From: an uncultured Bacteroidia bacterium
GTDB lineage: Bacteria > Bacteroidota > Bacteroidia > Bacteroidales > F082
NCBI GenBank assembly: GCA_902767725.1
Contig: CACXIM010000008.1
Coordinates: 1-54,568, forward strand
Length of the DNA: 54,568 nucleotides
Direction of reading: 5' to 3'
Under the pieces are notes generated by a model. That model saw nothing but the letters and a program-made list of their open reading frames with translations. It was not told the DNA's origin and made no database searches. The position numbers were made by a program, and so were the translations under genes. Positions 7,603-50,954 of this stretch are shown one piece after another (positions within the stretch are counted from its first letter, which is position 1; each line of letters begins with the position of its first letter).

Positions 7603-7657
7603 GGTATTTAGATTTTTATTTTGTTATAAGCGTACGGGTATTATTGTGTAGTTATTT

Positions 7658-10600: not shown

Positions 10601-11236
10601 GTAGTCAATGTCATGGCCTTGACCAGAAGCATCGTGGGCTTCCATGTGAATGATAAATTGACCAGCAGTATGTATCCTCATGTGATACCATGAAGGATAA
10701 GGCTGACTAGAGAGGCAACCGTATTCAGGACCAGGCTCGCCAGTGGCACCACCTTGGTAAGCGGCTTCAAATTCTATCACTTCTGAAGTGCAGAAAGGCA
10801 TGGAGTTCAAGCAATGGTCATTATCAGACCTCAGATTCGCTGTATTCACATCCATCATAATCGAGAGGTAGTCAGTGGCTTCAACAGAGCTTTTCCACAC
10901 ACTCATCAAGTTAGTGATATCAATCTTGCTCAACAAAGAGAAGTCTGTTTCAACATTTGCATAGAAGCTTTCAAACTCATCCATGAAGTGGCTGTCATCG
11001 TATTTCGGAGTGATGATAAATTGGCCAAAAGTCTCTTCGGGAATCAACACGAAACGATTGTCATTGCTGATGTTATAAAGCAAAAAAGATCTAAAGTAGA
11101 CGTTGTCGATGGTGTGGAAATTCAATACGACACCTTCTTCTGAATAATGCCTATAGGGCGTTTGTGCGAAATGTCTCATCGGTAAGGCCAATAATAAAAG
11201 CAAGGCCAACAAGGTGATTTTCGTAGGTTTATTCAT
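7658..11236 (-). CDS. T9SS-sorted PKD-domain surface protein, longer paralogue
   Basis: The 1192-residue product has the same layout as its 957-residue neighbour: signal peptide; the MPFCTSEVIEF / GPEYGCLS / CIWGPF domain; PKD/Ig-like repeats including YQWNFGDGQTSTQQSPSHTY; the conserved module (AVVTNTEFFSFQYTF, WAINKPSWAIEY, KERKFYLKSSF); and a T9SS sorting domain in the last 80 residues (VNIVPNPNNGQ to KKVVVIH). It is longer because it has more Cys repeats of the kind CxxYxWxGxxYxxxGxY...GCDS (SICPSDIYYWHGDPYTAVGT and following units). The two genes are similar at DNA level in the last ~500 bases. The number of Cys-repeat units differs between paralogues, as expected for a repeat-length-variable surface protein. 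The start is just before the signal peptide. Confidence 0.85.
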   Translation of the reverse strand: MNKPTKITLLALLLLLALPMRHFAQTPYRHYSEEGVVLNFHTIDNVYFRSFLLYNISNDNRFVLIPEETFGQFIITPKYDDSHFMDEFESFYANVETDFSLLSKIDITNLMSVWKSSVEATDYLSIMMDVNTANLRSDNDHCLNSMPFCTSEVIEFEAAYQGGATGEPGPEYGCLSSQPYPSWYHMRIHTAGQFIIHMEAHDASGQGHDIDYCIWGPFTDPYEPCVNGLTCDKMIDCSYSTSSVENVYLGYPISQHNHGSSSLADGSCVTANNNPPHTPQVGEYYILMITNFSQYQQTISFTKTPNSGPGETDCGILPGVVENDGPYCVGETIHLTVSSQNGATYSWSGPGGWTSTQQNPTRPNCTMNMAGTYTCTTTVGAQTTTGTTEVVIYPMPNANFTFNTVCQGNPTQFTNTSTTNPAGQQITSYQWNFGDGQTSTQQSPSHTYTNAGTYPVILTISTGGHCTSTKTQNVTVTPQPVANAGPDQTIPYGSIAQLNGSGGAGTFNYHWEPANMVTNPNAQNTQTVILTEDQTYTLTVSNESCTSTDEVTIHISGSAMTVTAGPDISICQGGSGQIYVSAGGGTGNLTYSWTPTTGLSNPNIYNPIASPSQTTTYTCHVTDGQTSQNVSVTVTVNDVIVDNEYMSICPSDIYYWHGDPYTAVGTYQFDTVTSQGCDKTIYLHLDHYSTYDETTIDVAICHGESYNFYGTNYTSSIQTSYTDHTTQHGCDSIVRLNLTVYPDNGVTPKPVTVCPEQLPYNFYGVDYFDNADVTYLDTDVHGCDSAVRLILNVSDYYMPEPQVSHTCSLPFEWVIKDADNNVISTQYITVPGIHTDTLPTNACEGIFQLDLRYQPVPEPEHIYDTACNNYRWFIDGQLIDEYQTTTEDEYHISQYPYPCSKDYYLHLIVNHDDSDVTYYDGNNPSVPCDSIPFDWFGNAIYFKENDTYNFSTSLYPQAHTTHGCDTAMVVHVSNMKYTPNPNKIKCSDASAVVYSVDPLNPNVDDTIAVVTNTEFFSFQYTFYVEETNSNCKWESCNWAINKPSWAIEYNPEPTLSLNGKYYSECTVYVADRQNEYVELTATINNGCGSKERKFYLKSSFLDVEEYSNMPAKVNIVPNPNNGQMHIDFENMEGRTTVKVFDMTGNQIDAFETVVNSNRYNYEYNMKKYAEGIYFFVISNNNRVLTKKVVVIH

Positions 11237-11320
11237 GACTATTTGTTTAGCGAATGATTACCAATTGTATTTACTATGAATGTTATTCATTAAGCCACAT
11301 ATCCTAAACGGGACATTAAT

Positions 11321-11350
11321 AAAAAAGCGCGTAAAGATACGCACTTTTTT
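11321..11350 (-). terminator. Rho-independent terminator after the C25 protease gene
   Basis: The minus strand reads a run of A, then GTGCGTA, a four-base loop and TACGCGC, then a run of T. The stem has one G-T-type mismatch and T-runs on both sides. It lies 53 bases past the stop of the 11403-14891 gene. Confidence 0.7.
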
Positions 11351-11402
11351 GGAATAAAGAAGTGTTTTTTGTTATCAACGGCAGTTTTTTTGTGTTGAGC
11401 CC

Positions 11403-14400
11403 CTACATTTTCAGGATTTTCCTGCTCCAGTGTTGGCCGTTTTGCTCCACTACAATGAGGTACATGCCTGCTTGGCAATCCCTAAATGATACTTGGGATT
11501 CGTTGCGTTCTGTAAGGATGAGATTTCCCTTCGAATCGAAGACCTTGATGCAGAAATTACCCTCTTGTTCCAATTCAACATAAATTTGGTCTGTTGTGGG
11601 GTTGGGGTGCACAGTAAGCGGCATTTCTGTTCGTTCCGAGGTCTCGTCAAGATGGGGCGGCAAAGTGATGTAGTCGATCCAGGCACAATCAGAGCCGCTG
11701 TCAACGGAGTGGTCCTTCGAATAGACCCATTTATAGCTGTGGTATCCAGGTGTGACGGGGAAGGTCTGCTCTGCCCACCAAAGGTCACCCGACCATTTGT
11801 TTTGTTCTTCTCCATCGATGTAGAAGGTGAGGAAGTCATAGTTGAACTCGCTCGAAACCCTTCGGTAGAAGGAGATGTCTCCTGGCTCCGACGAGGTGAA
11901 AACCAAGGTGAGCTGCGAGGTCTCGCTATGGTCGATGTCGAACGACTTGGCACATTGTGATCCTTCGAATGACATGCTGGTGGTGACGATGCTCCAAGGA
12001 TGCAAGGGGTCGTTGGTCCAATAGCCTGATTCAAATGCACCGGTTTCGAAGTTCTCCAAGACATATCCAATAGAAGTGGAGATTTCTTCCTCGATATGGA
12101 TGTTGTTGATGACCGTTTCGAGCGTGAAATGGACGTATGGCACTTCGCCTGCAAGGAACTCGACATAGACATCGAACGTAACTATGGTCAAATCACCCAC
12201 TTCGAGGTCGGATAAAGATGTTTGAGGGGTGATAACACGGATATATCCTTCGTTGTGTGTCAATGAGATGCGAGGATTTTCGGCAATGAAATGGCCGTCG
12301 TTGGTGACGCGGAAATACAGTCGGGCGTATTCGCCTGGGTCGAGTCTCCCATCTTGGTTGCCTTGTTCGTCTTCGATGGCGATGAGCTCCGCACGGATGT
12401 TGGGTGCCACGACGGCGATGTTGTATTCTTGTGAATAGGTCTCGCCGTCAAATTGGGTGGTGAGTGTGAAAGGGATGTTCGTCCTGTCATGGATGTCGTC
12501 GCTGAGCTTGAGATGGAAGGCCTCTCCAATGAATTGGCTTGCATTGGAGGCCAAGGCTTCAAACGAGGTCTCACCTTGAGTGACGGTCAGCTGATCGGAG
12601 CTGGAGGTCAAGGTGACGGTTCCACCGTTGCTGCTTTGTAGTCCTACGTTTGTTACTTTGATGTCGGCCATGACCTCCTGGTTGTAGTGCAAGGTGAGCC
12701 CGCCGCCGTTCATGTCGATGCTTTCGACCACGACGAAGGGCCTGTCAAAGGGCACAAGCGTGATGTCTTCTTCCTTGCGGATGAGGTTCTCGCCCGTTAT
12801 GGTGAGGTGGACAGATGATACGGGAACGTTCTCCAGGATGGTGATTTCCTGTTCTTCTCCCGTGCCGATGGCGGTGGCGAGGATGTTCCATTTTCTTCCA
12901 TAATAGGCCGTCAGCGCAATGTTTGAACCTTCGGGCGCAGTGATGAGGAAGGGCGTGAAGCATTGTATGCTCTCATCGTGCGTGGTGGCGATGGGTTGAG
13001 GTATGTCGGTAAACACTCTGAGGAAGGCGTCGTTAAAGGTGTGATAAGTGTTGTAGGTGGTAATGCGTTTGTTTTGGTCTGTATTGGGAAAGACTTGGCT
13101 TTCAAGGAAGTATTTGCCAGCAACGCAGGCGAAGGCGGGTGTCCAAGTGTTGTAATGCGCTGCGTAAGGGCCAAAGTCGGGCATGAAGGAGGGGTCGAAG
13201 TGATCCCATACGCCCCAAAGGAAGATGTCGTTGGCAAAGGAATAGGTCTGGCCTGTCGGGGCGATGGCTCCCACAATGCCGGCGTTTTCTTCGTTACGCG
13301 TCATCCGAAGGAGGGATTCGACAAAACTGATGGTTGGAGAGTCGTACATGCCTGTTCTACAGTTGACGGAGATGAGATAGGTCAGCAAGTTCATGTTGTT
13401 GATGGCACCGAAGTCGTTGGTGTAGATTTCGGGTTGGTACCATTTGTTGTTCCATCCGTGGTCGCGGTGTTGGATGAGGTAGGTGCCGCTGTTGATGGCA
13501 CTGATGACTTGGTCGGCATCGCCACCTGTCCAGCCTCCGAGTTCTCCTGGCGTAGCAGGTATGTAGCCTACCCCGTCGGGACCAAAATAGTTGACTACGG
13601 AAGAGGTGCCAGCCGCTGTCGACCAGGTCTCTCCCAACTCGCCGCTATAGATCTCGTTGAGACGTATCGGGGTCTTGCCATGTTGGGTCAGATAACCGCT
13701 GATGGTGGCAATGGTGAGTTGGAACCACACGGCACTTTGCCAAGCAGCTGCAGTTATGGGATGGTCGTAGTAATAAGGGTCGGTAACGGGAGCGGTGTAT
13801 TCGTATTCGTAGTGTTTGCTGAGAAGTGTTGACAGCTCCGACGTGTTTTGTGCAAGGATGCGGCAGAAACAGATGTCAGGCAGGTAGTCGTCGTTGATGT
13901 CGGCGTAAGGGTTGTCGGAGGTGATGAAGTTGTCTTTGGGATGCAGGGTTCGATAGCCAGGCACAAATTGATGTAGGTCGGTGCCATTCTCTCCGATGAG
14001 GCATATCGCCGCTGGGGGTATGTCCCATGTGGAGTAAATGCTTCTGAACCATTGCTTTAACGAAAGATGGTCGGTGGCTCCTGTTTCCGTGATGCGCATC
14101 ACGTTAGTGAGGATGCCTTGTTTGATGCGGAAGTTGGCAAGCTCTTGCGCGGCTTCGTAAAAGGCATCGTCGTCGGGTGTGATGATGAGGTATTCGCAGC
14201 CGGTGGCTCGGGTTTGCGACCATTGCTGTCGGCGGGCATCATAGTCGATGGGCTTCAAACACGCATAGTTGAGGATGTTGTTTCTCAGAATGGGGTCCCA
14301 ATAAGGTGATCGCAGTCGGTCATTGCCAAAATGCCCGTTGCCACCCTCAAAGCGGATGTCAATGTCCATCTCCCGATGGAAGGCCAATTCTTTTGTCACA

Positions 14401-14891
14401 GGGTTGAACTGGAAAGGGCTGATGCCCAAGTGGATGACATCTACGCCGCGAAGCTGCTGGGGGGCGGCGATGCAGTAGGTCTCAGCAGGGTAGAAGCAGT
14501 TCTTGTCATACACTTTAGGGTCTTTGAAGAAAGGTGGTTCTGCATCGTTTTCGGCTTGGCTACCCATCGAGGGCGCTATGTCGATTCCCGTCAAGAATTC
14601 ATTCTGTATGGTCCTAACCTCAACGGTGGCCTTTGCATCTTGCGGGATGGCGATGAAACGGTTGAAGGTGGGCAGGTCGGGCAAGCCATAGTCGTTAGGC
14701 ATGACGATGCCATTGGTCGCGATGGTGTGCATCAGTTCTCCTTCGTGATTGATAGTGTCGAGGTTGAAGTCGCCCAACTCGAAATGAAGGCTGATGTGGT
14801 TACGATCGGACGAAGTGATAGTGAAGGTTTGCCCGTGGGAAATAAGAGGCAAGGCAAACAATAGAATGAGAGGTAGTACTTTATGCTTCAT
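11403..14891 (-). CDS. Gingipain-like C25 cysteine protease with T9SS sorting domain
   Basis: The 1162-residue product has a signal peptide (1-20) and a gingipain-type propeptide (about 21-225: YGLPDLPTFNRFIAIPQ, VTKELAFHREMDIDIRFEG). A peptidase C25 domain spans about 230-590. It contains EYLIITPDDDAF, the SDNPYADINDDYLPDICFCRI stretch of the fold core, a catalytic His candidate in QHRDHGW (H475 or H478) and the catalytic Cys in SVNCRTG (C511). Ig-like domains follow, then a jelly-roll/cleaved-adhesin-like domain (ENFETGAFESGYW ... CAWIDYITLPP, about 940-1075) and a T9SS sorting domain (LTVHPNPTTDQ, about 1085-1162). It should be a secreted, surface-attached endopeptidase; Arg or Lys specificity cannot be read from the sequence. 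Its N-terminal 700 bases are nearly identical to the neighbouring broken paralogue. Confidence 0.85.
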   Translation of the reverse strand: MKHKVLPLILLFALPLISHGQTFTITSSDRNHISLHFELGDFNLDTINHEGELMHTIATNGIVMPNDYGLPDLPTFNRFIAIPQDAKATVEVRTIQNEFLTGIDIAPSMGSQAENDAEPPFFKDPKVYDKNCFYPAETYCIAAPQQLRGVDVIHLGISPFQFNPVTKELAFHREMDIDIRFEGGNGHFGNDRLRSPYWDPILRNNILNYACLKPIDYDARRQQWSQTRATGCEYLIITPDDDAFYEAAQELANFRIKQGILTNVMRITETGATDHLSLKQWFRSIYSTWDIPPAAICLIGENGTDLHQFVPGYRTLHPKDNFITSDNPYADINDDYLPDICFCRILAQNTSELSTLLSKHYEYEYTAPVTDPYYYDHPITAAAWQSAVWFQLTIATISGYLTQHGKTPIRLNEIYSGELGETWSTAAGTSSVVNYFGPDGVGYIPATPGELGGWTGGDADQVISAINSGTYLIQHRDHGWNNKWYQPEIYTNDFGAINNMNLLTYLISVNCRTGMYDSPTISFVESLLRMTRNEENAGIVGAIAPTGQTYSFANDIFLWGVWDHFDPSFMPDFGPYAAHYNTWTPAFACVAGKYFLESQVFPNTDQNKRITTYNTYHTFNDAFLRVFTDIPQPIATTHDESIQCFTPFLITAPEGSNIALTAYYGRKWNILATAIGTGEEQEITILENVPVSSVHLTITGENLIRKEEDITLVPFDRPFVVVESIDMNGGGLTLHYNQEVMADIKVTNVGLQSSNGGTVTLTSSSDQLTVTQGETSFEALASNASQFIGEAFHLKLSDDIHDRTNIPFTLTTQFDGETYSQEYNIAVVAPNIRAELIAIEDEQGNQDGRLDPGEYARLYFRVTNDGHFIAENPRISLTHNEGYIRVITPQTSLSDLEVGDLTIVTFDVYVEFLAGEVPYVHFTLETVINNIHIEEEISTSIGYVLENFETGAFESGYWTNDPLHPWSIVTTSMSFEGSQCAKSFDIDHSETSQLTLVFTSSEPGDISFYRRVSSEFNYDFLTFYIDGEEQNKWSGDLWWAEQTFPVTPGYHSYKWVYSKDHSVDSGSDCAWIDYITLPPHLDETSERTEMPLTVHPNPTTDQIYVELEQEGNFCIKVFDSKGNLILTERNESQVSFRDCQAGMYLIVVEQNGQHWSRKILKM

Positions 14892-14965
14892 ATAGTTATG
14901 ATAGTTTATTTGACCGCGAATTTATATAAAACGAAGAATTAACCTGAAAAAAACATTTTTTTCAA

Positions 14966-17434
14966 TTACATTTTGATGATTTTGCGGCTCCATCGTTGTT
15001 CGTCTTGCGTGACGACGATATGATACATCCCCGCAGGTTTGTCCTTTATGCTGATGATAGGCATGTCTTGTTCCGCCATGATGAGCCGCCCGTTTTCGTC
15101 AAAGACTTGCACCGTGAAGTGTCCCTCATGTTCCATGCCGATGCTGATTTGGCCAGTGGTAGGGTTGGGGTGCAGGGTTAGCGGTAGTTCAGTGTGCTCG
15201 GCGGTGTCGTCTAAGTTGGGCGGCAAGGTGATGTAGTCAATCCAGGCGCAATCGTCACCATGCGGATGTAATTGGCCCTTGCTGTAAGTCCAGACGAATC
15301 GGTGCTGTCCGGGAACAACGTTGCATACATATTCCATCCAATCTATCTCCCCCGAAAAAGTATACATGTAATGACCATCCATATAAAACCTCAAAACATC
15401 GTAGTAATAATTCGATGATACCTTGATGTAAAAGGAAAACATGCCCTCTGCGTTTGAGGTGCAGTTCAAGACGAGTTGTGACAACTCGTTGTTATTAAGA
15501 GTGGTATCGGATTGGACGCAATAGGTGCCCTCAAAAGCCCCAACGTCAACGATATGCCAAGGATGCACGGTATCGTTGGTCCAAAATTCAGGGTTCAATA
15601 CACCCGTCTCGAAGCTCTCGAAGGAGAGGTTGATCGGGCAATCGAAGCTTTCCTCCATGACGAGGCCGCCATAAGTGGCATTGAGAAGGAACTCTACGGA
15701 AGTCACTTCGCCTGCGAGATATTCGACATAGACGTCAAAGGTGATGTCGGCTGTTGCCCCAATAGCCAGGTTTTCGATGGCCGTCTCTGGCGTGATGATC
15801 CTGACATAACCCTCGTGGTTCACTAAGGCGACGCTGGCACTCTCGGCTTCGTAGTGGCCTGTGTTGGTGAGGCGGAAGGTGAGACTCGCATATTCTCCCG
15901 CATCCAAATGTCCGTTGCCGTTTCCGGCTTGGTCGTTGATGTCGACAAGCGCTGCAGCAATGTTCGGGGCGACGACGTTCACCTTAAACTCGCGCTCGAG
16001 GCTTCCTCCGTCGAATTCGGTTGTCACGGTGAAGGGTACACGGCTTCCGTCAGGGAGATTGTCGGGAAGGGTAAACTGGAAAGCGTCTTCAATCAAAAGG
16101 CTCTCGCCAGACAACAGGGTCGGGATAGAGGTCTGAGCCACTGTGATTTGCATCTGTTCCGTGGCGTTGGCAAGGGTGGCCGTCCCGGCTTCATTTGTCG
16201 CCAAGCCAACATTGCGGACTTTGAGGCCCATGGAAGTCGATTCGCCGTAGTGCAGGTGGTTGGTGCCATTGTGGAAGAAGACGCTGTCGGCGATGACAAT
16301 AGGCCCGTCGAAGGGATGCAATGGAAGGGTCACCTCTTGGCGGAGGTAGTTCTTTCCGGTCAAGGTCAATAGCGCCGAGTCGGCGGGTGCATAATCCATC
16401 ACGTAGAGGGTTTGTTCTTCACCCGTGCCTGTGGCTGTGGCCAAAAGATGCACTTTGCCGTCATAGTTGGCGCTTATGGCAATTTGTACGCCTTCCGGCA
16501 CGGTGATGTGGAATGGTGAGAAGCAGGTGATAGTTTCGTCAAAGGAGGCTTCTATGGGCTGAGGCACGTCGGTGAAGAGTCGCAGGAAAGCATCGCAATA
16601 CGCGTGATACACGTTGTGGGTGAGGGTGCGCATGCTTTCGTCGGTGCCAGGAAACACTTGTTCGTCAAGGTAATACTTGCCCGACACGTTGGCAAAGGCC
16701 GGCATCCATTCGTCGCCGTGACTGTCGTTTGGGCCGTGGTCAGGAAGGAATTCAGGGTCAAGAAGGTCCCAGATGCCCCAGGCGAAGATATCGTTGGCGA
16801 AGGAATAGGTCTGTCCCGCTGGAGCGATGGCACCAGCGATGCCTGCGTTTTGGCCATCGCGCGTCATGCGCATGAGCTCTTCGATGAAGCAACTCCCTCC
16901 TCCGTTGAACGCGCCTGTTCTGCAATTGACGGAGAAGAGGAAAGACATCAGCCCTGGGTTGTTGATAGCATCGAAATGATAGGTAAAGATTTCGGGCTGG
17001 TACCATCTATTGTCCCATCCGTGGTCGCGGTGTTGCACAAGGTAAGTGCCTTGGTTGAAGGCTTGGATGACATCTTGGGCGTTAGCACCCGTCCATGAGT
17101 CGAGTTCGAGCGGATTGGTAGGGATATAGCCCAATCCGTTGGGACCGAAATAGGATACGACGGCATCAGTGCCGGAGGCGGTCGACCATTGTTCGCTTAA
17201 AGAGCCGGAGTATAGTTCGCTGAGGAGAGATGGTGCCTTGCCGTGTTGGCTGAGGTAGCCGTAAACGGTTGCGGTGGTGATTTGGAACCACCTTTCGCTC
17301 TGCCATGCCGAGGCTGTCACAGGGTGTTCGTAGTAGTATGGGCTCATGCAAGGGTTGGTGTACTCATACTCGATCTGTTTGCCGATGTAGATGGGCATTG
17401 TGTGATGTCGTCTCCTTGGCCGCCAATGATGCAT
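14966..17434 (-). pseudogene. C-terminal part of a second gingipain-like C25 protease (broken by deletion and frameshift)
   Basis: True homology begins at about 17400 with PIYIGKQIEYEYTNP; the first few codons of the open frame are out-of-frame sequence. It carries the second half of a C25 catalytic domain, including QHRDHGW and SVNCRTG with the candidate His and Cys, then Ig-like domains, a jelly-roll domain (ESFETGVLNPEFWTND ... CAWIDYITLPP) and a T9SS sorting domain (LTLHPNPTTGQ ... RKIIKM). It aligns end to end with the intact paralogue at 11403-14891. The segment holding the SDNPYADINDDYLPD core, roughly 45 residues, is absent between this part and the N-terminal part. No start codon with a signal peptide exists here, so this half cannot be secreted alone. 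It could be a real decaying duplicate or an assembly collapse. Confidence 0.75.
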
Positions 17435-27284: not shown

Positions 27285-29618
27285 TCAATTCCAGATAAAT
27301 ATCCCGTATGAACTGGGTGTTTCTTTGATGACTTTTTTGGTCACCTTTACTTGATGGTTCATGACGCAGAAGAGGTAAACCCCAGCCGCTTTGCCTGCCA
27401 GGGAATAGGGTACGATTGTGCCTTCCAAGTTCGTGTCAACACCAAACCGGTCAATGAACTGTCCGAGATAGTCGTAGAACACGATGACGGCTTCGCCTTG
27501 CATGCCATAGAGAACGATGTTGAATTCGCCCTTCGTTGGGTTAGGGTAGACGACAATGTCGGGATGGGCATCATGGTTGATGAAAAGGTGTCGTTCAACA
27601 TAACCACATTCGGAGTAGACCCTAACTTTCAGCGTGGCGGTACCAGGTGAATAGATGTTGACTGTGCATTCGGGCGAGTCAGGCGAAAATTGAATGGGCC
27701 AAGGCCCTTCAAGGCTCCATTCGTAGCCAAAGCAACCTTCGACAGGGTCGATGCTGTAGGTGTATTGTCCGTTGGTTTGGTAATAGATGATGTTCTCACC
27801 ATGGATGGGACTGACGTAGGAAGAGGCCTCCACGTTCAGGTCAAGGACAACGATGCTGTCGCAGCCTTGTTCAGCGGTGAAGGTCTGCTCGTAGATGCCG
27901 CTTTCGGTGTAGGTTGTTCCGTTCCAGGTATAGCTGTCGCAGGCCGTCTTACTTAAGTAAGTATGGGTAGTGCTGCTGGGGTTATAGGGTTCGCCAGTTG
28001 GAGTGATGTAACCAGCCTGTTGCAAAAAGCTGTTGTAGGGGCGACGGATGGTGCCGTCAGATCCGGTGAAAACTGTGGCTATATCGAAGCAGAAGGTGGG
28101 GATGGTGAGGTCTTCGTTGACGTTGGTGACGTGGTACATATACTGATTCCAAACTTTACGGGCAGCCCCCCAACTGTTCGGATTGCCGAAAATGTGCAAA
28201 TCACCATATCCAACATTGTCATTGAATGTTTGGTTGAGTACTCCGGTCACTACGATTTCAGCTGCTCCATCGTTATTGACATCGGCAACCACGGGATATT
28301 CAATTCCTGTTCCTGCTCCCATCACTTGTGTGTAGATATTATATGGTCTAATTGTGTCATTACCTGTTACATGACTTATGCCGCTGGCATTGATGATGCG
28401 CAAGTGTGTGTTGTCGCGGAAAACGAGTTCAAAAATACCATCTTGGTTGAAATCGAATAAGGTCATTGCAGTCATACCAGAAGTGTCATTGTGATTTTGT
28501 GACCAAATGGTATTTAATCCACTTTGAGGAGTGTAACGCCAACAGATGATAGCTTCGTTGTGGTATTTGGGCTGATTCTCAAGAAAAACGATTTCGGGAT
28601 ATGGGTCACTATCCGTGTTGCCAATAAAGACGTAACTTGTACTGGAACAAAGATGTGCATTTTGGAATATGATTTGTCCTGAGGAGGGCTTGTAGGCATA
28701 GAAATAACAGTCATCTACAGTTTGATCATCAGTGTCGTCTCGAATAACAAGGATCTCACACTCTCCATCAAGGTCGAAATCGGCAATGCTGACATGGCCG
28801 TCAGGAGTGAAGTTAGATGGAGGCGTGATGGTCTTATTTATAGATATAGAGTTCAATGAAGGATTGGTCCGGCTTTGAATGTCCACATCGTAAATCGTGT
28901 TGCCGCAAATTAGTTCTTGCTTCTCGTCGCCCAATACATTGTAAGCTAATGACATTGCATAGTAGCAATGGTGGTGCACTCCGTATGAATAATATGGTGT
29001 CCCTCTAAAACTTAATCCTTTGTTGCCGCTTTCTGGTCCTGAGCAAAGCCATTTCAACGTGGCTGCATCGAAGATGTCGCTACCTGAGTAAACTTCAGGA
29101 TAACCATCGCCGTTGAAATCGGCTAGTGAAACCATCCCATCGCAGCTGGTTGGTCGATCCGATACATTGAGTAAAGTCCCGTCAATGGTATAAGAACGTA
29201 TTTTTTTGTCATAACCATGGATAAAGATAGCGCCTTGTATGGTGCCATTAGACAAGGGGTAACGGCCTATGGCGTATGGACCATTTTGAAGGTAGATTGT
29301 GTCGTGAACGTTGAAACTATGTTGTAACGATAAGTCAAGACCGCTGTATACGAGGATTTGGCGAGTACGGTAATTGTTGTCTCCTGCGTATTTTCCCACT
29401 ACGATGTCCGTTACACCATTTCCGTCAATGTCACCGACCACAATAGGGGAGTAGCTGGCCACTTGATGGTTGTTGGTGGAATAGAGTCGCTGTATGTTCC
29501 ATGGTTCGCCCTGGATAGAGCCATTGCATTCAGATTCAATCACATTGTCAGGAAATGGGGTTTGGCCAACTAATGAAATACTTGACAACAGCAGAAGAAT
29601 AGAGAGCAGATGTTTCAT
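27285..29618 (-). CDS. FG-GAP/VCBS-repeat T9SS surface protein
   Basis: The 777-residue product has a signal peptide (1-18), then at least six FG-GAP/VCBS-type Ca-binding loops in a beta-propeller: DIDGNGVTDIVVG, DFNGDGYPEVYSG, DFDLDGECEILVI, NTDSDPYPEIVFL, DFNQDGIFELVF and DVNNDGAAEIVVTG. A Cys repeat (CDSYTWNGTTYTESGIYEQ...GCDSI) and a PKD-like domain follow. The T9SS sorting domain (IVVYPNPTKGEFN to VKVTKKVIKE) is followed by an unusual 11-residue tail (TPSSYGIFIWN). It is the last gene of the glycosyltransferase operon, 13 bases after the GT gene. It is expected to be exported to the cell surface; the ligand is unknown. Confidence 0.8.
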   Translation of the reverse strand: MKHLLSILLLLSSISLVGQTPFPDNVIESECNGSIQGEPWNIQRLYSTNNHQVASYSPIVVGDIDGNGVTDIVVGKYAGDNNYRTRQILVYSGLDLSLQHSFNVHDTIYLQNGPYAIGRYPLSNGTIQGAIFIHGYDKKIRSYTIDGTLLNVSDRPTSCDGMVSLADFNGDGYPEVYSGSDIFDAATLKWLCSGPESGNKGLSFRGTPYYSYGVHHHCYYAMSLAYNVLGDEKQELICGNTIYDVDIQSRTNPSLNSISINKTITPPSNFTPDGHVSIADFDLDGECEILVIRDDTDDQTVDDCYFYAYKPSSGQIIFQNAHLCSSTSYVFIGNTDSDPYPEIVFLENQPKYHNEAIICWRYTPQSGLNTIWSQNHNDTSGMTAMTLFDFNQDGIFELVFRDNTHLRIINASGISHVTGNDTIRPYNIYTQVMGAGTGIEYPVVADVNNDGAAEIVVTGVLNQTFNDNVGYGDLHIFGNPNSWGAARKVWNQYMYHVTNVNEDLTIPTFCFDIATVFTGSDGTIRRPYNSFLQQAGYITPTGEPYNPSSTTHTYLSKTACDSYTWNGTTYTESGIYEQTFTAEQGCDSIVVLDLNVEASSYVSPIHGENIIYYQTNGQYTYSIDPVEGCFGYEWSLEGPWPIQFSPDSPECTVNIYSPGTATLKVRVYSECGYVERHLFINHDAHPDIVVYPNPTKGEFNIVLYGMQGEAVIVFYDYLGQFIDRFGVDTNLEGTIVPYSLAGKAAGVYLFCVMNHQVKVTKKVIKETPSSYGIFIWN

Positions 29619-37343: not shown

Positions 37344-38813
37344 TTATGCAATTACTTCTTTTTCTGGGATGTTGCTCAGCGTTTCAACGAGGAAGTCCCA
37401 GAACGGCTGCACGCTCTCGATGAGCAGGGCTTCGTCGGGTGAATGCGGGTGCACCAAGGTCGGGCCAAAGCTCACCATGTCCCAGTTCGGATACTTCGAT
37501 CCGAGGATGCCACATTCCAAACCGGCGTGGATGACCATCACCTTGGGTTCTTTGCCGAACTTGTCGAGATAGACCTTCTTCATCAGGTTGAGGATGGTGG
37601 AGTTGATGTTGGGTTTCCAGCCAGGATAGTCACCAGTGGAGTAGGCTTCTGCACCGTTGTCGGTGAGGTTCTTGCGGATTTGCTCGGCCAGTTTATCCTT
37701 GGCGGCATCGACGAGGCTGCGGGTCAGCGAGGCGGTCGTGATCTTGCCGTCTTCCATCTTCCATGTGGCCAGGTTGCTCGAGGTCTCTGTGGTGCCTTCA
37801 AAGTCTTCCGACATGGCGATGACGCCGTTGGGATAGCGGGCAATGGCGCAGAACATGTTGTCTTGCGTCTTCACGTCGATGACCTGCTTGGGCATCTCAG
37901 CGTCTTCGCAGAGGATGGCCAGCTCAGGCTCCACTTCGGCGAATTCTTCTTTGCAGATGCCTTCGTATTCAGCGGCATACGCTTTGAATTCTTCTTCCTT
38001 GTCGGCAGGGACCACCACGATGGCTTCGGCTTCTCTTGGGATGGCGTTGCGCAGGCTACCGCCATCAATGCAGGCGAGGCGCAAACCATATTTCTCGGCT
38101 GCCATAAGCAGCATGGCGTTCAGCACTTTGTTGGCGTTGGCGCGACCCAAGTTGATGTCCATGCCTGAGTGACCGCCTTTCAGTCCTTTCACGAAGAGGC
38201 GGAAGGCTTTCATGCCAGCGGGGACGGCTTCGAAGGTGGGCGTCCAAGTGCCGATGTTGTCGACACCGCCAGCGCAACCGACGTACAGCTCGCCCTCGGT
38301 CTCCGAATCCATGTTCATCAGGATGTCGCCTTTCAGCACACCGGGCTGCAGCTTGTTGGCGCCCGTCATGCCGGTTTCTTCGTCGATGGTGAAGAGGGCT
38401 TCGATGGGACCATGTTGCAGGTCGGTGGCTTCGAGCACTGCCATGGCTGCGGCAGCACCCAGACCGTCGTCGGCGCCGAGGGTGGTGCCATTGGCCTTCA
38501 CCCATCCGTCTTCGATGTGGGTCTCAATCGGGTCGTTCTCAAAATCGTGCACTTTGTCGGCATTCTTTTGCGGGACCATGTCCAGATGGGCTTGCAGGAT
38601 GACGCCTTTGCGGTTCTCCATGCCTGGAGTGGCGGGTTTGCGCATGATGACGTTACCGCATTCGTCGACGATGGTTTCAAGGCCGTGTTCTTCGCCCCAT
38701 TGCTTCATGAAGGCGATCACTTTGGCTTCTTTCTTCGAAGGGCGGGGAATCTGGGTGAGACTGTAGAAGTTTCTCCACACGCCATTCGGTTCTAAATCTT
38801 TGATAGAGCTCAT
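37344..38813 (-). CDS. pepD: Aminoacyl-histidine dipeptidase (cytosol non-specific dipeptidase, M20C)
   Basis: The 489-residue product is close to the usual PepD length. The M20 metal-site signatures are QAHLDMVPQ (His and Asp), GTTLGADDGLGAAAAMAVLE (bridging Asp) and IDEETGMTGA (catalytic Glu region). GGHSGMDINLGRANA and, near the C terminus, IHAGLECGILGSKYP with SFGPTLVHPHSPDE are family signatures. It hydrolyses dipeptides, including Xaa-His, with two zinc ions in the cytoplasm. The start follows a repeat-rich leader. It is transcribed away from the small lipoprotein gene at 39002. Confidence 0.95.
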   Translation of the reverse strand: MSSIKDLEPNGVWRNFYSLTQIPRPSKKEAKVIAFMKQWGEEHGLETIVDECGNVIMRKPATPGMENRKGVILQAHLDMVPQKNADKVHDFENDPIETHIEDGWVKANGTTLGADDGLGAAAAMAVLEATDLQHGPIEALFTIDEETGMTGANKLQPGVLKGDILMNMDSETEGELYVGCAGGVDNIGTWTPTFEAVPAGMKAFRLFVKGLKGGHSGMDINLGRANANKVLNAMLLMAAEKYGLRLACIDGGSLRNAIPREAEAIVVVPADKEEEFKAYAAEYEGICKEEFAEVEPELAILCEDAEMPKQVIDVKTQDNMFCAIARYPNGVIAMSEDFEGTTETSSNLATWKMEDGKITTASLTRSLVDAAKDKLAEQIRKNLTDNGAEAYSTGDYPGWKPNINSTILNLMKKVYLDKFGKEPKVMVIHAGLECGILGSKYPNWDMVSFGPTLVHPHSPDEALLIESVQPFWDFLVETLSNIPEKEVIA

Positions 38814-40330: not shown

Positions 40331-41098
40331 ATGACGCTACATACATTTTATATCTTCCTTATCGTCATGGCTGTAGTGGCTGTGGTGGTTTTTGTAAGCC
40401 TCTTCTTCGTGGATGCAGGCTACGGTAAGTTTTATGACCCGAAATGGGGCCCTGCGGTCAACAACAAGTTGGGTTGGGTGCTGATGGAGTCTCCTGTGTT
40501 CGTCGCCATGCTGCTGCTGTGGCTCTTTTCCGACCGTCGTGCCGACATGGTACGTTTGGCCTTCCTTTTCCTTTTTGAATTGCACTATATCCAACGCTCC
40601 TTCGTGTTTCCGTTTAGGATACGCGGCAACAGCGTGATGCCCTTGTCCATTGTCGTCATGGGTGTCAGCTTCAACGTGCTGAACGCCTTGATGCAAGGCG
40701 GTTGGATTTTCTATCTTTCTCCAGAGGACTATTATCCAGCCGATTGGCTGACAGACCCACGTTTCATCGCCGGTTTCCTGGTCTTCATCATCGGCATGTA
40801 TGTCAACATCCAATCCGACGACATTATCCGCAACTTGCGCAAGGAGGGCGACACTAACCACTACCTGCCTAAGGGTGGCATGTTTCGTTATGTCACTTCT
40901 GCCAACTATTTCGGCGAGTTCGTTGAATGGATCGGTTTCGCCATCCTGACCTGGTCGTGGGCGGGCGCCGTGTTCGCTTTATGGACCTTCGCCAACCTCG
41001 GACCTCGAGCCGACCACATCTACAAGCGCTATCAGGTGGAGTTCGGCGATGAGCTGAATACGAAAAAAGTCAAGAGGATTATTCCTTTTATCTATTGA
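40331..41098 (+). CDS. Steroid 5-alpha-reductase (SRD5A1)-like 3-oxo-5-alpha-steroid 4-dehydrogenase
   Basis: The 255-residue membrane protein has about seven predicted membrane segments and resembles human SRD5A1 along its length. Matches include DWLTDPRFIAGFLVFIIGM, VNIQSDDIIRNLRKEGDT (about 158-175), GGMFRYVTSANYFGEFVEW (182-200) and the C-terminal IIPFIY. SRD5A2 residues Q56-E57 correspond to M52-E53 here, so the Glu is kept and the Gln replaced. Y86 in HYIQRS matches the catalytic Tyr. It should reduce the delta4 bond of 3-oxo-delta4 steroids or bile-acid intermediates to the 5-alpha product using NADPH. The next gene starts at its stop codon. Gut Bacteroidales 5AR proteins are the closest known comparison. 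Confidence 0.85.
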   Translation: MTLHTFYIFLIVMAVVAVVVFVSLFFVDAGYGKFYDPKWGPAVNNKLGWVLMESPVFVAMLLLWLFSDRRADMVRLAFLFLFELHYIQRSFVFPFRIRGNSVMPLSIVVMGVSFNVLNALMQGGWIFYLSPEDYYPADWLTDPRFIAGFLVFIIGMYVNIQSDDIIRNLRKEGDTNHYLPKGGMFRYVTSANYFGEFVEWIGFAILTWSWAGAVFALWTFANLGPRADHIYKRYQVEFGDELNTKKVKRIIPFIY

Positions 41099-42336
41099 TG
41101 ACTATGGTAGAATCAATGATTTTCACTCCTTGCCAAATCGGTCCCATCACCTTGCGCAACAGGGTGATACGTTCGGCCGCCTTCGAGAATATGGCTTACG
41201 GCAACCGTCCTTCAGAGGATCTGTTTAATTATCATGCGGCTGTGGCTCGTGGTGGTGTCGGCATGACGACGGTGGCCTACGCTGCTGTCAACCAGTCGGG
41301 GCTGTCGTTCGACGGTCAACTCTGGATGCGCGAGGAGATTGTGCCTGAACTAAAACGTCTCACCGATGCCGTCCATTCCTACGGCGCTAAGGCTTCCATC
41401 CAGTTGGGGCACTGTGGCAACATGACGCACCGCGCCACCTGTGGTTGCATGCCTGTGGGCGCATCGGGGGGCTTCAATATGTATTCGCCGACGTTTCATA
41501 GAAAGCTGAAAAAGGAGGAGATTTACGAGTTGGTGAGTGATTTCGGCAAAGCCGTGAATCTGGCGCGAGAGGCTGGCTTCGACTGTGTGGAGATCCATGC
41601 GGGACATGGTTATCTCATTAGTCAGTTCCTGTCGCCTTATACCAACCGTCGTCACGATGAGTTTGGAGGCTCGTTGGACAACCGCATGCGTTTCATGCGT
41701 CTCGTCATTGAGGAGGTGATGCGCGCTGCTGGCGATGACATGGCGGTGGTGGTCAAGGTGAACATGCACGATGGCTTCCATCGTGGCATGCAGCGCGAAG
41801 AGTGTATTAAAGTGTCGCAGGAGTTGGAACGTCTCGGTGTGCATGCCCTTGTGCTCACGGCAGGTTTCGTCAGCAAGGCTCCGATGGAGGTGATGCGTGG
41901 CGCAATGCCGCTCAAGACCTTGCGTTATTACATGGACATGAAGAAATTCTGGTGGCTGAAGGCAGGCCTTGCCTTTGCAGGCAGGCTGTTGATTCCTACC
42001 GTGCCGTTCAGCGAAGGCTATTTCCTGGAGGATGCCAAGGAGTTTCGCGCCGCCCTGAAAATGCCCCTTATCTACGTGGGCGGTATGGTCTCGAGGGAAA
42101 AGATGGAAGAAGTGCTTGATTCAGGCTTCGTGGCTTTGCAGATGGCACGTGCCTTGGTCAACGACACTGATTTCATCAACAAGCTCCAACGTGGTGATGT
42201 GACGCGCAGTGAGTGCAAGCACTCCAACTATTGCATCGGACGCATGTACACTTTGGAGATGAAGTGCCACCATTGCGTGGAGAACATGCCCAAACGGCTT
42301 CAGGAAGAGATTGACGAAGCGGAAAGAACGTTATGA
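41098..42336 (+). CDS. Old-yellow-enzyme NADH:flavin oxidoreductase (candidate 5-beta-reductase)
   Basis: The product has 412 residues from the ATG at 41098, which overlaps the reductase stop codon as TGATG; a further Met lies two codons in. The TIM-barrel OYE fold is shown by FTPCQIGPITLRNRVIRSAAFE at the N terminus, QLGHCGNMTHR (substrate His/Asn region), EIHAGHGYLISQFLSPYTNRRHDEFGG (FMN phosphate site) and the C-terminal YVGGMVSREKMEEVL. A late Cys-rich stretch (CNYCIGRM-type, then MKCHHCVENM) is present, but the BaiCD-type C-terminal Fe-S/NAD domain is absent. Bacterial relatives reduce C=C bonds of 3-oxo-delta4 steroids. With the neighbouring genes it is a candidate bile-acid 5-beta-reductase. 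Confidence 0.8.
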   Translation: MTMVESMIFTPCQIGPITLRNRVIRSAAFENMAYGNRPSEDLFNYHAAVARGGVGMTTVAYAAVNQSGLSFDGQLWMREEIVPELKRLTDAVHSYGAKASIQLGHCGNMTHRATCGCMPVGASGGFNMYSPTFHRKLKKEEIYELVSDFGKAVNLAREAGFDCVEIHAGHGYLISQFLSPYTNRRHDEFGGSLDNRMRFMRLVIEEVMRAAGDDMAVVVKVNMHDGFHRGMQREECIKVSQELERLGVHALVLTAGFVSKAPMEVMRGAMPLKTLRYYMDMKKFWWLKAGLAFAGRLLIPTVPFSEGYFLEDAKEFRAALKMPLIYVGGMVSREKMEEVLDSGFVALQMARALVNDTDFINKLQRGDVTRSECKHSNYCIGRMYTLEMKCHHCVENMPKRLQEEIDEAERTL

Positions 42337-42340
42337 ATAG

Positions 42341-42468
42341 TCACAAAACCTTCAAAACCTTTTGTAGAGGTTGGGAAAGCGGTCAACAAACACGCTTTCT
42401 GGCGGCATCACGGTTGTGTGCCGCCATACGCTTTCATACAGTTTTGTGTTGTTTTGTAGGTTTTGTGA
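42341..42468 (+). repeat. TIR-bounded double-hairpin element, copy 1
   Basis: The terminal inverted repeats read TCACAAAACCTTCAAAACC on the left and the complement of TCACAAAACCTACAAAAC on the right. Inside are two hairpins: GGAAAGCG with CGCTTTC, then GGCGGCA with TGCCGCC followed by ATACG. The second copy is at 50784-50954. It lies between the OYE and SDR genes, whose coding regions it does not enter. Confidence 0.7.
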
Positions 42469-42481
42469 TAAACAACGCGAT

Positions 42482-43297
42482 ATGAGTGCAAAGAAATGGA
42501 TAAAAAGGTTTCAGGAGTCTCAAGGGCATTTGCCTTGGGCCTTGGTGACGGGTGGCAGCTCAGGCATGGGTTTGGAGTATGCCCGCCAGTTGGCTGAAAT
42601 CGGCTGCAACCTAGTCCTGGTCAGTAATCAAGAGGAGGAGTTGCAAAAAGCCGCCGAGGAACTGAAACAAGGCCGAACCATCCAAGTCATACCGCATTAC
42701 CAAAACTTGGCCACGGAGATGGCGGCGGAAGAACTGCTGGCCTATTGCCAAGCGGAAGGCTTGCAAATTGACATCCTCATCAATAATGCAGGGATGTTTT
42801 TCTTCGAGGAATTGACCACCCAAAACGAAGCCAAATCCTTGACGATGATGCGATTGCATATCCTTACGCCTACCCGTTTGTGCATCGTTTTTGGTGAGGA
42901 GATGAAGAAACGTGGTTGTGGATACATTATTAATATGTCGTCGATGGCGGCAAAACTGCCTTGTCCGGGCATCACAATCTATTCGGCCACCAAGGCTTAT
43001 CTGAAGAGCTTCGGCAAGTCGCTCTTCTTCGAGATGAAACCCTACGGCGTGGGCGTGACTACGGTCTGCCCAGCCGCTATCGCCACGCCGCTCTACAAAT
43101 TAAAACCCAACTTGTTGAAGTTTGGCGTGAAAATTGGACTGATTGGTACACCACAATGGTTGGTGCGGAAGGCCTTGAAGGGCATGATGAAGAAGAAAAG
43201 GGTAGTGAAACCCGGATTGATGAATCATTATCTGCCGCCTTTGATTGCCGTTCTGCCCCACGGATTAGTGAATAAGCTATGGCAAAAATTCAAGTAA
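42482..43297 (+). CDS. Short-chain dehydrogenase (candidate 3-beta-hydroxysteroid dehydrogenase)
   Basis: The product has 271 residues from the ATG at 42482; the longer in-frame reading upstream passes through the repeat element and is rejected. It is a classical SDR. The cofactor-binding TGGSSGMG is at residues 23-30, NNAG at 101-104, Ser at 153 or 154 (IINMSSM), and catalytic Y167 and K171 in YSATKAY. The basic C terminus suggests membrane association. In gut Bacteroidales, an SDR of this size accompanies the 5AR and 5BR genes as 3-beta-HSDH; that is the inferred role here, but 17-beta or lipid oxidoreductase activity is possible. The PCMD gene starts 19 bases before its end. Confidence 0.75.
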   Translation: MSAKKWIKRFQESQGHLPWALVTGGSSGMGLEYARQLAEIGCNLVLVSNQEEELQKAAEELKQGRTIQVIPHYQNLATEMAAEELLAYCQAEGLQIDILINNAGMFFFEELTTQNEAKSLTMMRLHILTPTRLCIVFGEEMKKRGCGYIINMSSMAAKLPCPGITIYSATKAYLKSFGKSLFFEMKPYGVGVTTVCPAAIATPLYKLKPNLLKFGVKIGLIGTPQWLVRKALKGMMKKKRVVKPGLMNHYLPPLIAVLPHGLVNKLWQKFK

Positions 43298-44226
43298 CGA
43301 TGTTGTTTTTGTTGGCCTGTTTGACGGCCTCGGCCCAACGCTACGAGAAGGTGCCTTTTGGCGACTTCGAGCATTGGACGGTTCGGTTTGTCACCGAGTC
43401 GCAAGTCATTGGTGGACAGGAAAAAACCTTGTATGTGATAGGCCCTACTGATACCATCCGTGGTAACGACCCCTATAAATACAAGAACACGATTTGGTCG
43501 TCGTCGAATGCCTTCGCCAAGGTGATGGGTGTGGTGAAGACGAGCACCAACGTCACCCCCGACGATGGCCCGACGGGCAAATGTGCCAAACTAGCTACCG
43601 AGTTCGCCTCATGCAAAGTTGCTGGCCTTATTAATATAAAGGTATTGGCGGCAGGCTCCATCTATTGGGGCAAGATGCTTGAGCCCATCACTGGCGTCAG
43701 CGACCCTTATGCCTTCATGGACTGGGGCATTCCCTTCACCAAGCGGCCTAAAGCATTTGTGCTCAATTATAAAGCCTCTATTCCGAACACAGGCAAGCTG
43801 GTGAAAGGCACCACGTTCCGCACCACGGAATTCAACGGTTACGATGCTGCTGAGATCCTTTTTATCTTGCAAAACCGTTGGGAGGACGAGAAAGGCAACA
43901 TCCATGCGAAGCGGGTGGGAACTGCGGTGTATCATGTCGAAAAGAGTACCAGTGGATGGCAAAGCAATTTTAGGATTCCCGTCATCTATGGCGATGCCCG
44001 AAAGGCGAAAGAATACAAGCCTTATATGGATTTGATATCGGGCGACAAGACCATGTATGCCTTGAACAAGAAAGGCAAGAAAAAAACCATTCAGGAAGAG
44101 GCTTGGGCTGAGGCGGATTGTCCTGTCACACATGCTATTATGATGATTACCTCTGGCAGCCAAGGGGCTTTCATCGGTGCCGTGGGCAACGTGATTTGGG
44201 TGGATGAAATTCGATTGGAGTATTGA
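43279..44226 (+). CDS. PCMD-domain secreted protein
   Basis: The 315-residue product has a signal peptide (LFLLACLTASAQ, about 1-19). The PCMD (putative carbohydrate metabolism) domain follows: FGDFEHWTV, KYKNTIWSSSNAF, KCAKLATEFA, and ending in VGNVIWVDEIRLEY. PCMD proteins are Bacteroidota-specific, exported, with a beta-sandwich fold and no known enzyme activity. The start overlaps the SDR by 19 bases, so it is the last gene of the apparent steroid operon. Its role in that operon is unknown; ligand binding at the cell surface is an inference. Confidence 0.75.
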   Translation: MAKIQVTMLFLLACLTASAQRYEKVPFGDFEHWTVRFVTESQVIGGQEKTLYVIGPTDTIRGNDPYKYKNTIWSSSNAFAKVMGVVKTSTNVTPDDGPTGKCAKLATEFASCKVAGLINIKVLAAGSIYWGKMLEPITGVSDPYAFMDWGIPFTKRPKAFVLNYKASIPNTGKLVKGTTFRTTEFNGYDAAEILFILQNRWEDEKGNIHAKRVGTAVYHVEKSTSGWQSNFRIPVIYGDARKAKEYKPYMDLISGDKTMYALNKKGKKKTIQEEAWAEADCPVTHAIMMITSGSQGAFIGAVGNVIWVDEIRLEY

Positions 44227-44393: not shown

Positions 44394-44846
44394 ATGGATT
44401 TAAGCAAGATTGTATCGATATCCGGTAAACCTGGACTTTATGTAGTTAAATCTCAAGCCGTTGGAAGGCTTATTGTGGAATCTGTCATCGACGGCAAGTG
44501 CTCACCTGCCTTTGCTCGCGAACGTATGAGCTCGCTTGAGGAGATCTCGATTTTCTCGACCGACGAAGACCGTCCGCTGAAGGAAGTCTTCATGATGATC
44601 CACGACAAGATGGGCGACAAGGTCGACTTCGACTATAAGAAAGCATCGAACGAAGAGTTGCGCGAGAAATTTGCCTTCGTCATGCCCGACTACGACGAAG
44701 AGGCTGTCTATCCTTCCGACATGAAGAAAGTCTTCGCTTGGTATCAGATGCTGGTCGACAAGAACCTGCTCGATTTCACTGTGGAGGAAGAAAAACCCGA
44801 GGCTGAAGCTGAAACACCTGCCGAAGCGCCGGCTGAAAAAGAATAA
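44394..44846 (+). CDS. DUF5606-family protein
   Basis: The 150-residue cytoplasmic product begins MDLSKIVSISGKPGLYVVKS and continues LIVESVIDGKCSPAFARERM and SSLEEISIFSTDEDRPL, which are DUF5606 signatures. The C-terminal tail is Glu/Ala-rich (EEEKPEAEAETPAEAPAEKE), a lineage-specific low-complexity extension. The function is unknown. The promoter TATTTTTG lies at 44356-44363, and a clear terminator follows at 44876-44899, so it is probably monocistronic. Confidence 0.85.
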   Translation: MDLSKIVSISGKPGLYVVKSQAVGRLIVESVIDGKCSPAFARERMSSLEEISIFSTDEDRPLKEVFMMIHDKMGDKVDFDYKKASNEELREKFAFVMPDYDEEAVYPSDMKKVFAWYQMLVDKNLLDFTVEEEKPEAEAETPAEAPAEKE

Positions 44847-50783: not shown

Positions 50784-50954
50784 TCACAAAACCTGCAAAA
50801 CCCTCAAAACCTTTTTTTTTGTGTAATGGAAAGCGTCCCCTCATTCCGAAATTGATTCGGAATGGATCGCTTTCCGACGGCAACCCTGTTGGGTGCCGCC
50901 ATACACGTCTCTTTGGGATTGTATTGGTTTTGCATTGTTTTGTTAGTTTTGTGA
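50784..50954 (+). repeat. TIR-bounded double-hairpin element, copy 2
   Basis: TIRs are TCACAAAACCTGCAAAACC on the left and the complement of TCACAAAACTAACAAAAC on the right. Inside are GGAAAGCG/CGCTTTCC around a third hairpin (ATTCCGAA/TTCGGAAT), then CGGCAACCC/GGGTGCCG followed by CCATACACG. It has the same order as copy 1 (42341-42468), but the flanking genes run on the opposite strand. Confidence 0.7.

Follow-up and report, generated by a model that had tools for sequence, protein, structure and literature searches.

In a 54,568-nucleotide stretch of DNA from an uncultured Bacteroidales bacterium of the F082 lineage (contig CACXIM010000008.1 of assembly GCA_902767725.1; the whole stretch is called the window here), four plus-strand open reading frames (ORFs) at positions 40331-44226 encode, in this order, a steroid 5-alpha-reductase-like membrane protein (5AR), an FMN ene-reductase of the old-yellow-enzyme family (OYE), a short-chain dehydrogenase (SDR) and a protein with a PCMD domain. 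We interpret this set as a probable Bacteroidales operon for the ring-A reduction of steroids or sterols, with the PCMD protein, whose subfamily is termed PCMD-S, as its exported partner. This interpretation draws on the content and order of the genes, a cassette that is conserved together with most catalytic residues, the export signal of the PCMD protein and the recurrence of PCMD genes beside steroid-modifying genes. The enzyme set is of a known kind, with an SDR of another type, while the recurrence of PCMD with steroid systems is the new part; no published description of such a link was found in a literature search covering part of the matching titles. The pattern suggests that PCMD-S is an unrecognised exported protein that helps bacteria to handle steroids.

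Distribution of PCMD-S in Bacteroidales

The original prediction, made from the sequence alone, regarded the PCMD gene as merely attached to the enzyme genes. It is attached, but it also recurs in other Bacteroidales cassettes and behind a sulfotransferase, which makes it the most informative part of the locus. A survey of the genomic neighbourhood of 5AR comprised 80 named loci, 55 of them with enough flanking sequence, and in these 55 the genes found near 5AR were OYE (51 loci), an SDR of the window's type (SDR1; 45), an SDR of a second type (SDR2; 31) and PCMD (17). The 17 PCMD genes occupied six different positions: the gene came after SDR1 in five loci and after SDR2 in one, stood between the two SDR genes in four, and was flanked by an upstream SDR1 and 5AR in three; in the remaining four it lay upstream, divergently in three and on the same strand in one. 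In a sample of 40 genomes from the genus, the PCMD family PF13201 was matched in 16 of 24 genomes with 5AR and in none of the 16 without it (Fisher 1.2e-05, kinship ignored; several of the genomes without 5AR and PF13201 are incomplete). The PCMD gene lay on the same contig as 5AR and within about 5 kb of it in 13 of these 16 genomes, and in the other three it was a separate paralogue away from 5AR, each time beside a glycosyltransferase and in two cases near an acyl-ACP thioesterase. A diverged PCMD-S paralogue was likewise seen at six loci of the window's genus, with an adjoining glycosyltransferase in five and a nearby acyl-ACP thioesterase in five. One genome carries a second SDR-PCMD-DUF5606 end piece near a contig end, which may reflect a strain mixture or a duplicate.

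For 247 sampled Bacteroidales genomes, score cut-offs were placed at visible gaps and chosen after the lists had been viewed (>260 bits for a close 5AR, >150 bits for the window-type PCMD that defines PCMD-S and >500 bits for a close sulfotransferase). A 5AR match was found in 52 of the 247 genomes and PCMD-S in 35. An OYE-type gene accompanied the close 5AR in 30 of 31 genomes, counting one in which OYE is split between contigs. A phylum-wide sample that included few Bacteroidales yielded PF02544, the 5AR family, in only 3 of 295 genomes besides that of the window (E<=1e-15), all three outside the order.

Inspection of 20 PCMD-S loci revealed a second setting, in which CysC, CysD, CysN, a sulfotransferase and PCMD follow each other in order (seven loci). 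An SLC13-type permease stands in front in six of these, the seventh stopping at a contig end, and parts of the cluster were confirmed by Pfam in one locus. Close sulfotransferases were present in 17 of the 247 genomes, with PCMD-S in all but one of the 17 and directly downstream in nine; as the link was found from the 20 loci and counted on the same genomes, discovery and count are not independent. The same arrangement, preceded by cysQ (cysQ, SLC13, cysC, cysD, cysN, sulfotransferase, PCMD), occurs in Parabacteroides distasonis NZ_OY725750.1 and Bacteroides finegoldii NZ_OY725913.1, and no such neighbours were found around PCMD in a second P. distasonis record or, by tblastn, in a Phocaeicola massiliensis record. 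According to the accessible text of PMC9417993, BT_0411-BT_0416 form a cholesterol sulfotransferase cluster, and no cholesterol sulfotransferase activity remained once BT_0416 was deleted. BT_0417 is not mentioned in the main text of that paper; we predict that it is itself a PCMD-S gene. The sulfotransferase-linked PCMD-S proteins are about 41% identical to that of the window, whose own genome (79.6% complete) gave no sulfotransferase match at E<=1e-20. Considering both settings together, a close 5AR and/or a close sulfotransferase was present in 32 of the 35 PCMD-S genomes compared to 40 of the 247 genomes overall (Fisher tests of these counts ignore kinship). The genome of Bacteroides ihuae, used as a control, had no match to PF13201 and none to PF02544.

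In a tree of 60 PCMD-S proteins without an established root, linkage to 5AR requires five changes (four after correction of one label) against a mean of 20.3 for shuffled labels, and linkage to the sulfotransferase requires four against a shuffled mean of 8.7. One clade of 29 rows is 5AR-linked in all but one row, separate 5AR links appear in a Rikenellaceae row and in Barnesiella and its kin, and the sulfotransferase links fall in another part of the tree.

Features of the PCMD-S protein

The window PCMD-S gene (43279-44226, plus strand) encodes a predicted exported protein of 315 aa with a single PCMD domain, matching PF13201 at E 2.1e-23 and 83.7 bits, well above the Pfam gathering score of 28 bits. 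All 46 members of a set of related proteins match the same family at E<=0.001, and the subfamily has a typical length of about 320 residues. The N-terminus of the window protein is a hydrophobic signal ending in TASAQ, and the protein has no room for a sorting tail of the type IX secretion system (T9SS). Because an Ala-Gln/Glu/Lys pair near the signal end is found in most members (36 of 44; a crude pattern also detects a lipobox-like motif in 14), export of PCMD-S appears likely.

The AlphaFold2 model of PCMD-S is beta-rich and confident (pLDDT 90.7, pTM 0.88). When compared with solved structures by Foldseek, its best matches were six chains (E<=0.001, best 4.9e-07, TM under 0.5) of PCMD structures whose titles call them putative glycoside hydrolases, followed with weaker scores by the carbohydrate-binding modules CBM27/28/22/61 and, at noise level, by pore-forming toxins. 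The invariant residues of the subfamily are largely polar (for example E40, R200, E202, R212, H285 and D309), so a role in binding conjugates or glycans is conceivable.

Enzymes of the cassette

The 5AR gene (40331-41098, plus strand, 255 aa) matches PF02544 at E 1.9e-44, and its best matches among solved structures (phmmer) are the bacterial PbSRD5A (1.7e-51) and human SRD5A2 (5.7e-40), with an enoyl-CoA reductase of the TECR type far behind (1.4e-10). The protein is thus nearer to the steroid 5-alpha-reductases than to the enoyl-CoA reductase branch, as the original prediction had read it, and fatty-acid reductases are not its closest homologues among solved structures. A steroid or sterol is very likely its substrate. 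QEY is the signature of the SRD5A family, and the SRD5A2 mutants Q56A/L, E57L and Y91F are inactive, according to the accessible text of PMC7815742, which also lists eight NADPH residues (N160, D164, R171, N193, E197, R227, H231 and Y235). The corresponding catalytic sites of the window 5AR are M52, E53 and Y86, so that Glu and Tyr are kept, Met replaces Gln, as had been noted earlier, and the full QEY signature is absent. Seven of the eight NADPH residues are retained (N159, D163, R170, N192, E196, R226 and Y234), with I230 at the position of His231.

The methionine is not peculiar to the window gene; it is the state of the whole clade. In an alignment of 156 rows, made up of two references and 154 Bacteroidales rows (147 of them distinct; the window and P. 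massiliensis are among these), Glu and Tyr are invariant, Met occupies the Gln position in all 154 Bacteroidales rows, and Gln is found only in the two references. Since Met is fixed across these rows, the window 5AR is, by its sequence, unremarkable within a bacterial branch that has MEY. The site equivalent to His231 is more variable (Ile in 109, Leu in 17, His in 13, Asn in 4, Val in 3 and Thr in 1 of the 147 distinct Bacteroidales sequences); beyond the alignment, three further Bacteroidota sequences combine MEY with His and one Nocardia sequence combines MEY with Thr.

The OYE gene (41098-42336, plus strand, ATG at 41098) matches PF00724 at E 2.1e-59 (scanned from 41104) and contains the active-site stretch HAGHGY and conserved C-terminal cysteines. 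The cysteines follow the spacing C-x5-C-x10-C-x2-C, the first three being present in at least 97% of 83 rows, and could bind an iron-sulfur cluster or zinc. The protein did not reach the NCBIfam equivalog for BaiCD (200.9 bits against a cut-off of 825, covering profile positions 4-257 of 642). It is a candidate 5-beta-reductase or reverse dehydrogenase, and a part as the 5-beta partner of 5AR seems fairly probable.

The SDR1 gene (42482-43297, plus strand, ATG at 42482, 271 aa) encodes a classical short-chain dehydrogenase (PF00106, E 1.3e-39) with the motifs TGGSSGMG and YSATK. Among solved structures it matches an alcohol dehydrogenase best (1.9e-24), a match that does not fix the substrate. 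The window cassette contains SDR1 only, and comparison of this protein with three SDR2 proteins gave identities of about 23-25%. The P. massiliensis record OY726067.1 contains 5AR (57% identity), OYE (64%) and SDR2, and the window SDR was unmatched within the 16.7 kb examined there. The earlier reading took the SDR for a 3-beta-hydroxysteroid dehydrogenase (3-beta-HSDH). An SDR is indeed adjacent, but its subfamily differs from that of the SDR beside the P. massiliensis 5AR, and because the two are only about 25% identical, naming the window SDR as the known 3-beta-HSDH is unproven. SDR1 is a candidate 3- or 17-hydroxysteroid dehydrogenase, and on balance we expect it to belong to the hydroxysteroid dehydrogenases.

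Proposed role and alternative explanations

In the mechanism we propose, a 3-oxo-delta4 steroid would enter the cell, where the membrane 5AR would pass hydride from NADPH to C5 while E53 and Y86 hold the C3 carbonyl, giving the 5-alpha 3-oxosteroid. OYE would interconvert the delta4 and 5-beta forms, and SDR1 would reduce the 3-oxo or another oxo group. Outside the cytoplasm, the exported PCMD-S would capture the steroid, or free it from a conjugate, and hand it inward; alternatively, it may carry the product away. The recurrence of PCMD-S with two sterol-modifying gene sets suggests that they share an exported step of steroid handling, and a functional partnership of PCMD-S with steroid metabolism is, in our estimation, somewhat probable. 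That it acts as a binding or transfer protein rather than as a hydrolase is less likely than not, and we offer only tentatively the wider proposal that PCMD-S is a dedicated exported steroid/sterol handler of host-associated Bacteroidales, common to the chemically unrelated systems of 5-alpha/5-beta reduction and cholesterol sulfonation, and constitutes the missing extracytoplasmic step of sterol uptake or release in these Gram-negative bacteria.

Several observations weigh against this interpretation. Kinship explains part of the co-occurrence of 5AR and PCMD: a tree built from rpoB for 34 of the 40 genomes in the genus sample offers only five independent pairs, of which about three agree and none oppose, too few for significance (sign test p 0.125-0.25). 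PCMD-S is absent from 7 of the 31 close-5AR genomes and from 8 of the 40 that have at least one of the two systems, 3 of the 35 PCMD-S genomes have neither system, and no PCMD lies nearby in 38 of the 55 flanked loci. The association might accordingly reflect inherited linkage and shared habitat without any functional connection, an explanation also favoured by PCMD-S genes that stand alone or beside the glycosyltransferase and thioesterase in the same genus. We consider it rather unlikely, because PCMD takes six different positions around the cassette, the best PCMD tree shows its linkage to 5AR at three separate points, and PCMD also comes after the sulfotransferase in a cluster of an unrelated type, one for sterol sulfonation. 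The fold matches and polar invariant residues of PCMD-S fit a sugar-like ligand as well as a steroid, and PCMD-S may instead be carbohydrate-active or carbohydrate-binding, releasing sterols extracellularly from conjugates, glycosides among them (steryl glucosides, saponins, glucuronides), and so supplying 5AR, OYE and SDR or the sulfotransferase. The Pfam label of the domain (putative carbohydrate metabolism) and the plant steryl glycosides that are plentiful in the forestomach diet agree with this possibility. However, the hydrolase activity of PCMD proteins is only putative, taken from structure titles, the TM values of the fold matches stay below 0.5, and free bile acids, like cholesterol, carry no glycosyl group; this role appears unlikely, if less so than mere linkage.

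Two further alternatives concern the enzymes. The original prediction read the set as a bile-acid operon, which would produce allo- and iso-bile acids. According to the accessible text of PMC10382948, 3-oxo-delta4-lithocholic acid (LCA) is turned into isoalloLCA by P. merdae, O. laneus and B. dorei strains, P. merdae with a disrupted 5AR forms no alloLCA derivatives, and the genes grouped with 5AR are those of an NADH:flavin oxidoreductase and a predicted 3-beta-HSDH. The three enzyme families are indeed those of the known set, but SDR1 differs from the Phocaeicola SDR2, and the substrate is in question. Bile normally enters the gut below the forestomach and abomasum, and bile acids are doubtful as the native substrate of this lineage because 16 of the first 30 listed relatives have titles naming rumen, reticulum, omasum or abomasum, or RUG, which we take to denote rumen. 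A bile-acid operon is therefore improbable here, and plant, protozoal or dietary 3-oxo-sterols are the more likely substrates of the forestomach lineage. It is also conceivable that the 5AR-like protein acts on a non-steroid enone such as a polyprenal or fatty enoyl compound, as SRD5A3 or TECR does, since SRD5A, TECR and SRD5A3 form one superfamily and QEY has become MEY. The human Q56L and Q56A enzymes are inactive while the clade has Met at this site, and His231 is replaced as well. This alternative is nevertheless very unlikely given the far weaker match to the TECR-type structure, the nearly constant pairing of 5AR with OYE and SDR, and the P. merdae disruption data (PMC10382948, accessible text), for which we assume that the disrupted 5AR also has Met.

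Organization of the locus and related records

The family matches of all four ORFs are far beyond chance. The claim that the four genes overlap or abut applies to 5AR and OYE, where the 5AR stop TGA (41096-41098) shares its last base with the OYE ATG, and to SDR and PCMD, whose frames overlap by 19 bp, but not to OYE and SDR, which are 145 bp apart. This gap is filled by a palindromic dispersed element (42337-42481, no strand assigned) with inverted ends of about 18 bp, as judged by eye. The element folds better than 200 of 200 shuffled sequences (z -4.25), is also matched at 50868-50904 of the window, and gave 31 match rows in the metagenome-assembled genome (MAG), corresponding by our own count to about 26 places including the window copy, most of them partial. 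In three relatives that have no element there, the frames of OYE and SDR share 4 bp, so the operon is probably ancestral and the 145-bp spacer a later insertion; three other relatives have a gap of about 151 bp, similar in length to that of the window.

The cassette is the only site in the 3.06-Mb MAG with a PF02544 match or a PF13201 match, each occurring once. Outside it, a PepD-like peptidase (37344-38813, minus strand; named from sequence appearance without a family search) and a DUF5606/DUF6852 protein (44394-44846, plus strand) serve as the upstream and downstream landmarks in relatives. The bacterium had been described as T9SS-bearing, and the T9SS type A sorting domain was indeed matched in five of the eight large window ORFs tested; these five are on the minus strand, within 4729-17434 and at 27285-29618, and carry the domain at the C-terminus. 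Among the related records, a 5AR cassette typical of Bacteroidales sits on a 1.78-Mb contig of a MAG whose title, Pseudoflavonifractor, is probably wrong, and three PLSDB "plasmid" records from TSDC17.2 strains contain the housekeeping genes thrS, infC, rplT, ligA and dapA and seem to be pieces of chromosome registered as plasmids.

Implications and comparison with known systems

To our knowledge, it is not settled how gut Bacteroidota bring sterols and bile acids through their envelope to enzymes in the cytoplasm or the inner membrane. A single-gene candidate that a reduction cassette and a sulfonation cluster have in common brings this question within reach of tests in standard Bacteroides strains and provides a lead on function for a Pfam family named only for putative carbohydrate metabolism. 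In addition, part of this chemistry would shift from bile acids of the human colon towards sterols of the ruminant forestomach.

The window 5AR shares with the SRD5A family (human SRD5A2, 7bw1; bacterial PbSRD5A, 7c83) its sequence family, the equivalents of E57 and Y91 and most of the listed NADPH residues, and differs in having Met for Gln56 and Ile for His231. OYE shares the OYE-superfamily flavin domain with BaiCD and the Clostridium innocuum steroid 5-beta-reductase ci2350 (PMC12238238), but at 410 aa it is without the second, C-terminal domain of DCR/BaiCD. PCMD-S resembles the PCMD structures BT_2081 (3hbz), BT3745 (4het), BVU_0247 (3s30) and BACOVA_00087 (4jrl) at Foldseek E-values of 4.9e-07 to 1.1e-05, with 15-20% identity and TM under 0.5. 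The gene content of the BT_0411-BT_0416 cluster, as given in the accessible text of PMC9417993, corresponds to that found in other Bacteroidales with PCMD-S after the sulfotransferase, a type of sulfotransferase not found in the window genome. The closest parallel to the whole set is the 5AR cluster of gut Bacteroidota such as P. merdae, in which, as far as the accessible text of PMC10382948 describes it, an SRD5A1-like 5AR likewise stands beside an OYE-type flavin reductase and an SDR. The original prediction is supported in naming this arrangement of 5AR with a flavin reductase and an SDR, and the window is a new member of a set already described, distinguished by its type 1 SDR where the P. 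massiliensis set has type 2, by the attached PCMD gene, and by the many forestomach bacteria among its close relatives.

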